Shown here in pieces: positions 3,356 to 56,634 of a stretch of DNA of 64,000 bases (position 1 is its first letter; each line of letters starts with the position of its first letter). The DNA comes from Aminivibrio sp. (GTDB taxonomy: Bacteria > Synergistota > Synergistia > Synergistales > Aminobacteriaceae): NCBI RefSeq assembly GCF_016756745.1, contig NZ_JAESIH010000041.1, positions 7,104 to 71,103 of the forward strand. The letters are read 5' to 3'. Both the position numbers and the translations under genes were made by a program. Below the pieces are notes generated by a model. It worked only from the letters and a program-made list of their open reading frames with translations. It was not told the DNA's origin and searched no databases.

Positions 3356-3390
3356 AGGGGAAAAAGCGAGATCCTTGCTGCGCTCGGGAT

Positions 3391-3745
3391 GACCAACCGG
3401 GGTGCTGGCGTCCCGAACCGATCGCAGCGACGGATTGCGCAGCATCTCCGGAGGGGGAGGATCTCGGGGGGTGATTTTTAAGATTCTAGAAACAGGTCCT
3501 TCACTCCGCTCAGGACGACAGACAAAACCGGATCCCTCCCATTCGTTGGGGGATGACCTACCGGGGTGCTGACGTCCCGAACCGATCGCAGCGACGGATT
3601 GCGCAGCATCTCCGGAGGGGGAGGATCTCGGGGGTGATTTTTAAGATTCTAGAAACAGGTCCTTCACTCCGCTCAGGACGACAGACAAAACCGGATCCCT
3701 CCCATTCGTTGGGGGATGACCAACCGGGGTGCTGGCGTCCCGAAC
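3391..3745. repeat. Tandem repeat, about 164-bp unit, 2.2 copies
   Basis: Units begin at 3391, 3555 and 3718 (periods 164 and 163). The first two are nearly identical; the third stops after 28 bases. Each holds GGGTGATTTTTAAGATTC and the inverted segments CGGAGGGGGAGGATCTC and GGATCCCTCCC. The pattern of AGATCC and GGATGAC motifs links it to the GTCATCC/GGATGAC family. Short frames through it come from the repeat, and nothing else gene-like is visible in 3356-3800. Confidence 0.85.
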
Positions 3746-3800
3746 GGATGCCGGAAACGAACCCGTCCGTCCGTAAAACGTTTTGCCGGAGCTGAACCCT

Positions 3801-6198: not shown

Positions 6199-6982
6199 TT
6201 ACAGGGAGAAGGGCTCAACCGATTTGAAGATGCCCGTTTTCGTCATGTTCCGGCGGGTTTCAAAGCCGCCGACGGCTTCCCCAGGATCGATACCCGCCGG
6301 GGCAAAGGAATTGGTGTCGTCCCACCGGTCCCTGTGTACCCGGAGGCTGAAAAGATACTGGTCCTCTTCCCGTCCCGGTTCGCCGTATCCGGACAGGGTG
6401 CAGGCAAGGGGTGCCGTGAGCGGAAGGGGGCGGAGTTGAATGTCGATGATCACCTGGATAGATCCGTTCTTCCCGTCTGCGGCGTTCCTGCCCTCCGAAA
6501 CCCCGTCCGGCCCGAAGGAAGGAACTCCTGCGTTCTTTGAGCCGCCGGGCCAGGGAATGGGAAGTTTCTTGCGGTAGAAGATGCCCGATCCGAGAATGGT
6601 CACGTTCGCACGGACACCCCTGCCGACTCCTTTCGAACCCACTGCGGCGCTGACGCCGCACCCTAAATCCGCAGGTTTTTCAGGCAGAGGGAGTGTCGCC
6701 GGGCATAAGGTGAATTCGCCCCGCCAGGGGCGAAGAGATTATCCCCTGGGGGACAGCGCCCGGGGGAGAGAAACCGACACGGATGTCGGTTTCACAAGCA
6801 GGCAACCGGCGAACGCAGGGAGCCGTGTTGATCGCTTGGGCAGTTGTCAAGGACGACAATCTGCACCCCCCGCCCAAGCGAGCACCGGTGACGCTCCCTC
6901 TGCCTGCGGATTTAGGGCACTTGCTCAGGTTGGCCCTGATTCCCGGCGCGATGGGGATGGTCTTTCGAAAAGGGATGCTCAC
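6199..6982 (-). pseudogene. DUF4236-like gene interrupted by a mobile element
   Basis: The 5' piece (6982-6917) starts at GTG and reads SIPFRKTIPIAPGIRANLSK, the typical start of DUF4236 proteins. The 3' piece (6661-6199) continues CGVSAAVGSKGVGRGVRANV, then ILGSGIFYRK, as in that domain, and ends EPFSL. The element at 6662-6916 sits between them with GCAC on both sides. Removing the element and one GCAC joins AAG TGC GGC in frame. The 3' piece has its own possible GTG starts (6642, 6603), so a shortened protein might still be made. The function of DUF4236 is unknown. Confidence 0.8.
6662..6916 (+). mobile_element. CCTAAATCC-family structured element, copy A (long form)
   Basis: The 255-base element starts CCTAAATCCGCAGG and ends CCTGCGGATTTAGG, a perfect 14-bp inverted repeat. 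Inner arms pair through GGGAGTGTCGCC and GGTGACGCTCCC. It keeps the GAAACCGACA/TGTCGGTTTC hairpin and has extra modules: a TTCGCCCC/GGGGCGAA hairpin near 6717-6735, and a segment near 6794-6840 that is also seen in copy C. It is flanked by GCAC on both sides and interrupts a DUF4236-like gene. It encodes no convincing protein, so any transposase must act in trans. Confidence 0.85.
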
Positions 6983-10523: not shown

Positions 10524-10698
10524 ATGCAGACCTTTCTCCCCTACCCCGATTTTTCCGCTCCGCCGAGGTGCTTGATGTCCGCAGGCTTGGCAAGCAGAGG
10601 GCGGAGACCCCTACAGCTTCTGAACGGCCTCTCGCCGGAGTACGCCCTCCGGGGATGGCGGAACCATCCTGCCCGGACCATGTGGAGCGGCCATCCCT
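10524..10698 (+). pseudogene. Truncated pyrimidine-dimer DNA glycosylase-like gene
   Basis: AAGGAG precedes ATG 10524, which opens MQTFLPYPDF, the N-terminus of the small pyrimidine dimer glycosylase (T4 endonuclease V-like, PF03013) family. After a one-base loss the conserved AEVLDVRRLGKQRAET follows in another frame; an extra C returns it to the first frame as LQLLNGLSPEYALRGWRNHP and ARTMWSGHP. The TAA stop lies inside the repeat element that starts at 10696. The C-terminal half is absent. The normal role would be repair of UV-type damage. Confidence 0.75.
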
Positions 10699-10840
10699 AA
10701 ATCAGCAGGTTTCTCTCCCCTCAGGCGCCCTCTCTCAGGGGATATCTTTGCAAAGAGCGCGGAGCAGGATCTCTTCGCCCCGGGGATGGCGAATTCACCG
10801 TATGTCCGGCGGTGACGCTCCCGCTGCCTGCGGATTTAGG
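10696..10840 (+). mobile_element. CCTAAATCC-family structured element, copy B
   Basis: The 145-base element begins CCTAAATCAGCAGG and ends CCTGCGGATTTAGG (13 of 14 pair). The right arm GGTGACGCTCCCGCTGCC matches the other copies; the left arm and the internal hairpins differ (CAGGCGCC..., GGGGATGGCGAATTCACC). No flanking duplication is visible. The left end supplies the stop of the glycosylase pseudogene. The right end lies 37 bases before the TATAAT of the thiT leader. Confidence 0.75.
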
Positions 10841-10896
10841 CGGGTCTCGGGACGGTGACCGGAAAGAAAGAGAAGAGTATAATATCCTCATTCGCA

Positions 10897-17948: not shown

Positions 17949-18164
17949 GTAAAACCGCAGGTTTTTCGGGCGGCGGGAGTGTTGCCGGGCGCAGCGCCAG
18001 GCCGAGAAACCGACAGGGATGTAGGTTTAACAAGCAGGCAACCGGCGAAGGAAGAGAGCCGCGGGACTCGCTTGAGCAGTTGTCACGGATGACAATGTGC
18101 ACCGGCGGCCCAAGCGAGCACCGGAAATGCTCCTCGCTGCCCTTCCTGTGCCGCAAATTTCAGG
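17949..18164 (+). mobile_element. CCTAAATCC-family structured element, copy C (decayed)
   Basis: Bases from GTAAAACCGCAGG to CCGCAAATTTCAGG resemble the family but carry many changes, so the ends no longer pair well. Recognisable parts are GGGAGTGTTGCCGGG, GAAACCGACAGGGATG, AGCAGTTGTCACGGATGACA and GGCGGCCCAAGCGAGCACCGG. A segment ACAAGCAGGCAACCGGCGAA is shared with copy A only. It fills most of the 386-base gap between the reductase and the sugar operon, and ends 2 bases before the -35 element of that operon. Confidence 0.75.
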
Positions 18165-31432: not shown

Positions 31433-31993
31433 ATGATCGAAGCTGTCAGGACCAGGCGAAGCGTGCGCAAATTTACCGGCAAGGACGTGGAGGACGAGCT
31501 TGTCCTTCAACTTCTTGAGAGTGCCCGGCTGGCCCCGTCGGGGCACAATACCCAGCCGTGGCGGTTCATCGTGGTACGGTCCCCCGAAACTAAACGGGCG
31601 CTGGCGAAGGCAGCCCACGGCCAGTCGTGGATGGAGGCGGCACCCGTGTTTCTCGTCTGCGTGGCCGATGTCCGGTGCCGCATACAGGACGAGCCCGGCC
31701 TCGAGGTGAACGAAACGAGCCCTCACTTCGCTCTGAAACAGGTGATCCGGGACACGGCCATCGCCGTGGAGCACGCGGTGCTGGAGGCGGAGAACTTGGG
31801 CCTTGGCACGTGCTGGGTGGCATGGTACGAGCAGGCGGATGTCCGCCCCATCCTCGGGATTCCGCCGGACAGGTTCGTGGTGGCTATCCTGCCCCTGGGA
31901 TACCCTGCCGAGGCTCCCGGAGAACGTCCGCGGAAGAAGCTGGACGAGATCGTCATGTTCGATAAATGGGAGGAAAAGTCTGAAAAGGCATAA
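31433..31993 (+). CDS. Nitroreductase-family FMN oxidoreductase
   Basis: This 186-residue protein has the nitroreductase pattern: TRRSVRKFTGKDV and LLESARLAPSGHNTQPWRF (FMN phosphate and ring contacts) at the N-terminus, DTAIAVEHAVLEAENLGLGT, then ILPLGYPAE and RKKLDEIVMFDKW at the end. Such dimers use NAD(P)H to reduce nitro compounds, quinones or other acceptors. GGGGAGGAACTTAG precedes the start. It follows the AT-rich remnant region and is followed by a repeat array. Confidence 0.88.
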   Translation: MIEAVRTRRSVRKFTGKDVEDELVLQLLESARLAPSGHNTQPWRFIVVRSPETKRALAKAAHGQSWMEAAPVFLVCVADVRCRIQDEPGLEVNETSPHFALKQVIRDTAIAVEHAVLEAENLGLGTCWVAWYEQADVRPILGIPPDRFVVAILPLGYPAEAPGERPRKKLDEIVMFDKWEEKSEKA

Positions 31994-32006
31994 AAATGGT
32001 CTTGTT

Positions 32007-32637
32007 GTCATCCTGAGGAGCCGTAGGCGACGAAGGATCTTGTTTTTGAGGCAGTCCAAAAACAAAAGCGAGATCCTTCCCTCCTGGATGCTCCGCGATC
32101 GCTTCGCTCAGGATGACAATGGTCTTGTTGTCATCCTGAGGAGCCGTAGGCGACGAAGGATCTTGTTTTTGGGGCAGTCCAAAACCAAAAGCGAGATCCT
32201 TCCCTCCTGGATGCTCCGCGATCGCTTCGCTCAGGATGACAATGGTCTTGTTGTCATCCTGAGGAGCCGCAGGCGACGAAGGATCTTGTTTTTGGGGCAG
32301 TCCAAAACCAAAAGCGAGATCCTTCCCTCCTGGATGCTCCATCCGCTTATCTCAGGATGTTTCGCGAGTGTCAACCTGAGACAGGCTTTCTTGGCCGAAG
32401 GATCTTGCCCTTGCCCCTAAGGGACGAAAGACCCACTCTGAGATCCTCCCCTCGCTGGGCTCGGGATGCTGCGCGATCGTCGCAGGGCTCCTCAGGATGA
32501 CACGAGCGGTTTGTCAACCTGAGGCCGGATTTTTGGCCGAAGGATCTTGCCCTTGCCCCTAAGGGACGATAGACCCACCCCGAGATCCTCCCCTCGCTGG
32601 GCTCGGGATGCTGCGCGATCGCTTCGCTCAGGATGAC
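32007..32637. repeat. Array of five GTCATCC/GGATGAC palindromic repeats
   Basis: Units lie at 32007-32117, 32130-32240, 32253-32360, 32370-32501 and 32513-32637. The first three are near-identical with a period of 123 (111-base unit and a 12-base linker containing GGTCTTGTT). Each unit starts GTCATCCTGAGG and ends CTCAGGATGAC, with GAAGGATCTTG opposite GAGATCCTTCC inside, so each can fold into one long hairpin. Units 4 and 5 start GTCAACCTGAG and carry a GCCCCTAAGGGACGA insert also seen at 95-222. Frames across the array are repeat-derived. Confidence 0.9.
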
Positions 32638-43338: not shown

Positions 43339-43547
43339 CAGTGGAAGGGGCGTTCATGAAAGAACCGGGAACGGACGGAAGTTCCGGAATGACGGCGCAG
43401 GGGAGAGGCAGACAGGTTTTTCCCTTTTCAGGGCGTTCCACGTCGGGAAGGCCCTGGATGTCCTCCGCATGGAACAGGGCTGTCCTTCGCCTCCGGGCGG
43501 GGAGAGGTCACCCTGGAGGGGACCGGGGCCTGGGGATTTAGGAATGT
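43339..43547. other. Gap with a possible gene relic and an older element end
   Basis: A 66-codon frame starts near 43341, but it has no recognisable family and unusual composition. GGGGATTTAGG at 43532-43542 is the right-end sequence of an older CCTAAATCC-family copy whose body is lost or unrecognisable. No gene can be supported. Confidence 0.4.
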
Positions 43548-43712
43548 CCTAAATCTGCAGCTTTTTCTGGCAGAGGGAGTGTCGCCAGGCACAGCGCCCG
43601 GGCCGAGAAACCGACAAGGATGTCGGTTTCAGGTGCAGTTGTCAAGGACGACAATCTGCACCGGCGGCCCAAGCGAGCACTGGTGACGCTCCCCGCTGCC
43701 TGCGGATTTAGG
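43548..43712 (+). mobile_element. CCTAAATCC-family structured element, copy D
   Basis: The 165-base element starts CCTAAATCTGCAG and ends CTGCGGATTTAGG. It keeps GGGAGTGTCGCC opposite GGTGACGCTCCC, the GAAACCGACA-AGGA-TGTCGGTTTC hairpin, and the GGTGCAGTTGTC/GACAATCTGCACC hairpin. AATGT is repeated on both sides, and a right-end fragment of another copy lies just upstream. It ends 82 bases before guaA. Confidence 0.85.
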
Positions 43713-55630: not shown

Positions 55631-55668
55631 GGGCACCGGTGACGCTCCTTCCTGTCTTCGGATTTAGG
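55631..55668 (+). mobile_element. Right-end fragment of a CCTAAATCC-family element
   Basis: GGGCACCGGTGACGCTCCTT and CGGATTTAGG match the last 40 bases of the family. It lies just 8 bases before copy E, as at copy D. Confidence 0.6.
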
Positions 55669-55675
55669 GGAATAA

Positions 55676-55841
55676 CCTAAATCCGCAGGTTTTTCAGGCA
55701 GAGGGAGTGTCGCCGGGCACAGCGCCCGGGGGAGAGAAACCGACACGGATGTCGGTTTCAGGTGCAGTTGTCAAGGACGACAATCTGCACCGGCGGCCCA
55801 AGCGAGCACTGGTGACACTCCCCGCTGCCTGCGGATTTAGG
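55676..55841 (+). mobile_element. CCTAAATCC-family structured element, copy E (best preserved)
   Basis: 166 bases with perfect 14-bp ends (CCTAAATCCGCAGG, CCTGCGGATTTAGG). Inner arms GGGAGTGTCGCC and GGTGACACTCCC extend the stem. Inside are three hairpins: CCGGGC/GCCCGG (55713-55729), GAAACCGACA-CGGA-TGTCGGTTTC (55736-55759) and GGTGCAGTTGTC-AAGGAC-GACAATCTGCACC (55761-55791). AATAA flanks both sides. This copy serves as the family reference. It lies between the secF terminator and the promoter of the trehalose cluster. Confidence 0.9.
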
Positions 55842-55855
55842 AATAACGACTTTAA

Positions 55856-55885
55856 TTGTAGAACAAGGAAATTATGTGTTATACT
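55856..55885 (+). promoter_or_regulatory. Possible promoter of the trehalose cluster
   Basis: TTGTAG (55856-55861), an 18-base spacer and TATACT (55880-55885), about 70 bases before the first gene of the cluster. AT-rich context; a second TATAAT-like match follows at 55888-55893. Confidence 0.5.
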
Positions 55886-55956: not shown

Positions 55957-56634
55957 ATGAACACTACTGGAGCCGACGGTCCTTTCAGATTTATGGAATG
56001 CTCTATTCTGCCCGTGAGTACGGGCCTTCGAGCACAGACTCTCAGGGAACTCCGGTCCGCCATCCCCGAAATACCCGAAAGTTCCCTCTACTATCATTTC
56101 TGGGGCAGAATGCTCCGCCCTCATATCGCCGAGTCTGAGTTCAACAACGATTTTGCTTCCTGGGCCGATGGAGGCCTGGGGGACATCGAGCTGGCGGAAG
56201 TCCTCAGCGCGATCAATCCCGTGAAGTGCAAGGACTTCGCGGAACTTCGGTCGATCCTTGAGGATATCCTCGAGTCTCGCATCGACCAGGGGGATTTTTT
56301 GAGCTGGAAGAAGGCGGATAGGGAATTCTATTTTATTGCCTGCAGAAAGTTCATGTTCGCTACGGGGAAGGTCGCTTCCTCCCTGGAGGATTTTCCCGCA
56401 GCGGTCAAAACAGCCACCCGGCAGAGTTTCTTTCACCACTTTCTCGACGGCCGGCGACGTTCTCCCGAGGGAAAGGACGACTTCACCCTCTGGCTCGAGC
56501 AGTTCGGCGAGACGACCGCCGAGGTGAGGAGGCTCCTCGGCAGGGTGGATTCCTATCTTTTTTCCCTCGGAGAACTGAAGGGACAGATTGTCTCCATTCT
56601 CGAGAAGGGGCTCCGGAAGGGAGGAAAGAAATGA
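55957..56634 (+). CDS. DUF5752-like protein of the trehalose cluster
   Basis: This 225-residue protein resembles DUF5752: PFRFMECSILPVSTGLRAQT, LYYHFWGRMLRPHIAESEFN, NDFASWADGGLGDIELAEVL and a second half with FFHHFLDGRRRSPEGKDDFT and LWLEQFG. Function is unknown; family members usually lie next to TreT-type trehalose synthases, as here (4-base overlap with treT). AAGGAGG precedes ATG 55957. A role in trehalose regulation or in a complex with the synthase is an inference. Confidence 0.75.
   Translation: MNTTGADGPFRFMECSILPVSTGLRAQTLRELRSAIPEIPESSLYYHFWGRMLRPHIAESEFNNDFASWADGGLGDIELAEVLSAINPVKCKDFAELRSILEDILESRIDQGDFLSWKKADREFYFIACRKFMFATGKVASSLEDFPAAVKTATRQSFFHHFLDGRRRSPEGKDDFTLWLEQFGETTAEVRRLLGRVDSYLFSLGELKGQIVSILEKGLRKGGKK

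Follow-up and report, generated by a model that had tools for sequence, protein, structure and literature searches.

What is the multi-hairpin element that recurs between the genes of this DNA, a structured RNA, a mobile element or both, and why does it lie where it does? The window, a 64,000-nucleotide stretch of Aminivibrio sp., comes from contig 41 of a draft genome of 2.94 Mb (G000). A sequence-only reading had placed five copies in it, at 6662, 10696, 17949, 43548 and 55676, and all five were found in the sequence. The focal copy, copy E (55676–55841, forward strand, 166 bp), starts with CCTAAATCCGCAGG, finishes with CCTGCGGATTTAGG and is flanked on the left and right by the direct repeat AATAA (55671–55675 and 55842–55846). 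The shared 13–14-bp ends noted earlier are thus real, and we recast them as the terminal inverted repeats (TIRs) of a transposon with 5-bp target site duplications (TSDs); the duplications had gone unnoticed. The other copies also lie on the forward strand. Copy D (43548–43712, 165 bp, TSD AATGT) is upstream of a guaA-like gene (43795), copy A (6662–6916, 255 bp) carries extra hairpin modules and a 4-bp TSD, GCAC, and copy C (about 17949–18164) has decayed ends. The inner stem GGGAGTGTC/GACACTCCC and the perfect 10-bp hairpin (GAAACCGACA-CGGA-TGTCGGTTTC, 55736–55759 on the forward strand of copy E) were both seen, but copy B (10696–10840, 145 bp) has no such hairpin and a different interior. 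The common orientation of the copies holds within the window only; genome-wide, they run both ways.

A blastn search of the G000 genome with copy E returned 59 matches; about 28 cover the full length, with identities of 91–100%. Allowing one mismatch, we counted 134 + 146 occurrences of the 13-base end CTGCGGATTTAGG in this genome and 4 + 7 of the reversed control sequence. Therefore, the genome contains about 140 elements or end-pairs, far more than expected by chance. Automatic matching on the fetched stretches assigned exact 5-bp TSDs to 51 of 113 delimited copies, with a few more having duplications of 4 or 6 bp; in congeners, automatic matching assigned 5-bp TSDs to 21 of 28 copies. A DNA search of 60 relatives detected the element in two congeners only, with many copies there, and it was absent from the 56 genomes of other genera. 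No match was found in a plasmid collection. An exact 26-base pattern of the element had no occurrence in a named genome collection, which possibly does not include this genome and its near relatives.

The elements are short and non-coding, mostly 50–300 bp, with TIRs and no transposase ORF inside, as in miniature inverted-repeat transposable elements (MITEs). They fall into size classes of about 50, 145, 165, 207–215, 255–261 and 277–286 bp, in which the larger forms combine the smaller forms' modules with additional hairpin units. The family is therefore modular, as had been proposed. Copy B has an interior related to the middle of the large form in inverse orientation. The forms of about 50 bp have no internal hairpins, and several of them keep TSDs. 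At the other extreme, a copy in congener G001 (L236:474-918, contig C1) is 446 bp long, has the TSD TGACC and contains seven tandem 48-bp hairpin modules. Hairpin units may thus be lost, gained or tandemly amplified, which would give sizes from about 50 to 446 bp. In another copy (L056:470-759), the interior is flipped relative to its own ends, suggesting module inversion. The family resembles the BOX elements of Streptococcus pneumoniae, modular MITEs with fixed ends and internal stem-loop modules that vary in number, and the seven tandem modules of the G001 copy resemble the boxB expansions of BOX (PMC3049150, which describes these modules). BOX belongs to a different host phylum, and the comparison covered the architecture.

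Several draft contigs stop about 126 bases into a longer element that carries the same terminal repeat as the MITE. We found an intact version of such an element (G000:C76:3871-5782; L119:271-2182), an insertion sequence (IS) of about 1.9 kb with one 533-aa ORF and the MITE's ends; further IS ends of this type lie at contig termini. The 533-aa protein matched Pfam PF13701 (E 7e-19, 67.8 bits, cut-off 34.7) and the NCBIfam IS1380 model NF033539 (E 4e-51, 174.1 bits, 6 below the curated cut-off of 180), and no HUH family matched it in the profile search. As judged by these profiles, the parent transposase is an IS1380-type DDE enzyme. The type of transposase (PF13701/NF033539), the length of about 1.9 kb and the short TIRs of the parent IS are like those of the IS1380 family (e.g. 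ISEcp1 and ISPme1). TSDs in this family are 4–5 bp long. The intact C76 IS itself has only an imperfect TSD (CCGGT/GCGGT), and an IS in congener G004, 59% identical, has the 5-bp TSD CAAAT. The nearest relatives of the transposase are in Synergistaceae/Synergistetes assemblies, and a plasmid collection gave one weak match. Among the other IS1380 relatives (L128–L185), ends could be proposed in few only. For one of them, an Acetomicrobium IS (L129:2392-4340) with a 36%-identical transposase and the TSD TTAAT, a promoter is predicted near offset 13 from the right end; as a single copy, this IS was left out of the promoter-offset counts below.

Compared by eye, the MITE and the parent IS have the terminal repeat in common and little else. 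Because so little is common beyond the TIR, the MITE interior does not resemble an internal-deletion remnant of the parent. A match to an IS-derived MITE consisting of the two ends only had been named as what would refute the first interpretation of the hairpins; the TIR is indeed common to an IS, but the MITE interior exceeds the two ends. The common TIR and the TSD length suggest that the MITEs are non-autonomous and are probably moved in trans by the IS1380-type transposase, which would recognize the TIR of its own IS and of the MITEs and would make 5-bp target duplications. Together with the TSDs and the size classes, this parent IS bears out the MITE-like mobility suggested earlier.

The sequence-only reading had also suggested that the element may be an RNA. 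One alternative explanation is therefore a cis-regulatory or small RNA carried as a mobile element, with selection acting on its hairpins. The fold is very stable (z −8.8 for the focal copy, −7.6 for the 281-bp form), the hairpins are conserved, and paired columns are slightly less variable than unpaired ones (0.070 versus 0.105). However, the reverse strand of the focal copy folds equally well (z −9.9), which fits a near-palindromic DNA element. Compensatory changes, which had been proposed as support for a selected structure, gave weak covariation, mainly in one helix. RNAalifold analysis of 48 full-length copies from three genomes gave 49 pairs, of which 2 were compensated, with a negligible covariation term of −0.22 of −35 kcal/mol. 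When the fold of a single full-length copy was used, a double change was present in 11 of 94 pairs, not clearly above the 8.3 expected from shuffling (44 of 500 shuffles reached as many). Cell-based covariation measures did exceed all shuffles, and some double changes fell within one long helix, but they came mostly from three adjacent pairs of this helix that are common to subfamilies. No Rfam family reached the gathering or permissive thresholds. In addition, the copies lie upstream of predicted promoters and so are not transcribed from those promoters, and the approximately 50-bp forms retain TSDs in several cases although they lack the internal hairpins. These results do not support a selected RNA, and we consider this explanation quite unlikely; the hairpins may still have a role in the DNA. 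One such role, as single-strand signals for a protein in a transposition of the REP/RAYT or IS200/IS605 kind, would suit the multiple hairpins per unit. It is highly improbable, because the 5-bp TSDs and TIRs suit a DDE transposase that works on double strands, the protein of the parent IS is of the IS1380 type with no HUH family match, and the TIR alone is common to parent and MITE.

The flanks of the elements revealed where the insertions are. The flank analysis covered the MITE family and the parent-type IS of G000 and its congeners. A sigma70-like promoter pointing away from the element, with its −35 at offset 13–16 on either side, was predicted in 81 of 140 insertions, with about 1% expected. 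The −35 hexamer usually starts exactly 14 bp from the element end. On a generic, E. coli-like promoter scale, 40 of 140 flanks on the right and 28 of 136 on the left scored at least 8 at offset 14, against an expectation of 0.18 per position. An exact TTGAC was present at offset 14 in 34 flanks (20 right, 14 left), and no other offset from 0 to 39 had more than two per side. Full promoters facing inward (TTGACA with up to two changes plus TATAAT with up to one) were almost absent. When the confident promoters were grouped by spacer length (10, 19 and 7 promoters with spacers of 16, 17 and 18), the −35 offset stayed at 14, indicating that the −35 box sets the register. Of the strong −35 sites at offset 14, 67% were accompanied by a −10 at proper spacing, versus 12% of hexamers of equal strength at other places in the flanks. 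The promoter-associated fraction was 0.60 in copies with a TSD and 0.56 in those without, and it was alike in G000 and congener copies. About 40% of insertions had no recognizable promoter at this address. The sequence-only reading was partly supported, and the promoter distance, the most striking property of the family, was not in it.

In the window, a predicted promoter (TTGTAG-N18-TATACT, 55856–55885, forward strand) has its −35 at 14 bp past copy E, upstream of a DUF5752 gene at 55957. Another (GTGACC-N17-TATAAT, 10855–10883, forward strand) starts 14 bp past copy B and is directly followed by a TPP riboswitch (RF00059, 10889–10996). Copy D has a weak predicted promoter at offset 13, ahead of the guaA-like gene, and the decayed copy C has one at offset 1–2. 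For copy A, no promoter was found at the fixed offset.

Full-length IS copies showed the same register. For the full IS, nine right ends were delimited exactly in its own genome; seven of them had TTGACA at exactly 14 and one more had TTGCCC. Two of the ends with TTGACA at 14 (L110 and L113) are apparently within coding sequence, with a reading frame that continues into the IS; the −10 of these sites is poor, and a promoter benefit is not evident. About half of the congener IS ends had a promoter, with the −35 at 13–15, and the 59%-identical IS of G004 (L292) adjoins a poor −35 together with a TATAAT that is perfect and stands exactly at the −10 position. We also compared orthologous sites, and both sites examined were empty in congeners and retained the promoter. 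At the first (L006), where G000 has a MITE before a conserved small gene, congener G002 has the empty site with the promoter kept, and in congener G003 an IS right end lies at this promoter at the same 14-bp offset as the G000 MITE. At the second, that of copy B, G001 and G002 have no element, and the promoter of the TPP-riboswitch transcript is conserved.

Neighbouring elements followed a similar rule. In 15 of the 18 cases in which another element lay within 10 bp, the two were exactly 5 bp apart (a few pairs were counted from both sides). This spacing is the one predicted for a second insertion at one address, which would leave, in order, the old end, a TSD, the new element, a TSD, 9 bp and the −35. 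In the window, the end GGATTTAGG, a remnant of an older element, is located at 43534–43542, with a gap of precisely one TSD (5 bp) before copy D, and a remnant with the same sequence is located at 55660–55668, 7 bp from the left end of copy E. These two remnants fit serial insertion at one address.

Taken together, these data make it very probable that the MITEs are mobilized by the IS1380-type machinery with insertion targeted to a position 14 bp upstream of sigma70 −35 elements. The machinery would pick its target through the −35 element and would cut upstream of it, at distances of 9 and 14 bp (near −50) with a 5-bp stagger, so that the element end 14 bp before the −35 corresponds to the 5-bp TSD plus 9 bp. 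An element inserted in this way would be set just upstream of a working promoter, with neither promoter nor gene broken. The alternative is random insertion followed by selection, in which the copies that survive, or that are useful as insulators or UP-like elements, are those just upstream of promoters. Most copies do adjoin genes, the place upstream of a −35 is harmless, and the presence of both −35 and −10 (67% versus 12%) is in line with this alternative. However, the peak is one base wide, whereas purifying selection would yield a step and not a spike. The two IS copies in coding sequence have TTGACA at the same offset, the promoter fraction is equal with and without a TSD, and neighbouring copies are exactly one TSD apart. 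We infer that the placement reflects targeting rather than retention, and we regard selection after random insertion as unlikely.

Within the targeting model, the −35 may be read by the transposase directly or via RNA polymerase (sigma region 4 or the alpha-CTD). The preference for complete promoters over isolated −35 hexamers favours guidance by the polymerase, as do the sites at 10855–10883 and at the G004 IS, because both pair a poor −35 with a perfect −10. Direct reading of the hexamer is favoured by the two coding-sequence IS copies, because they adjoin TTGACA with a poor −10. We therefore propose only tentatively, as a possibility somewhat short of even, that the RNA polymerase holoenzyme at the promoter is the target-selection factor of the IS1380-type transpososome.

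The targets of precisely targeted bacterial transposons are usually a single gene, a repeat or a feature of replication. The Ty3/Ty1 retrotransposons, eukaryotic retroelements that are directed by transcription factors and target Pol III genes, insert at a set distance from promoters, where the upstream place is harmless. The fixed-distance insertion at promoters is alike here, but the element is a bacterial DNA transposon and the reference point is a −35 box. If RNA polymerase is the target factor, this system would be a bacterial counterpart of the Ty3-style promoter targeting in yeast retrotransposons. In the open-access literature searched, we found no description of a fixed promoter distance for bacterial transposons, nor, for the IS1380 family, of a spike 14 bp upstream of the −35 or of a large MITE family. 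A review of prokaryotic MITEs reports an intergenic preference (PMC10969869), and the promoter register is absent from the parts of the BOX paper available to us (PMC3049150). Outward promoters are reviewed for IS elements (PMC9330008); known IS1380 members are described as supplying such promoters, whereas the element here appears to choose them. With −35 boxes as its target, an element could reach many sites where it does no harm and could rewire regulation through replacement of all sequence beyond about −50; it would also mark promoters where a genome lacks transcriptome data.

The window also contains a second repeat family, unrelated to the MITE, at 31990–32358, 32388–32621, 3386–3749 and 94–175. 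It consists of 123-bp units in tandem and related pieces that contain GGATGCTCCGCGATCGCTTCGCTCAGGATGACAA.
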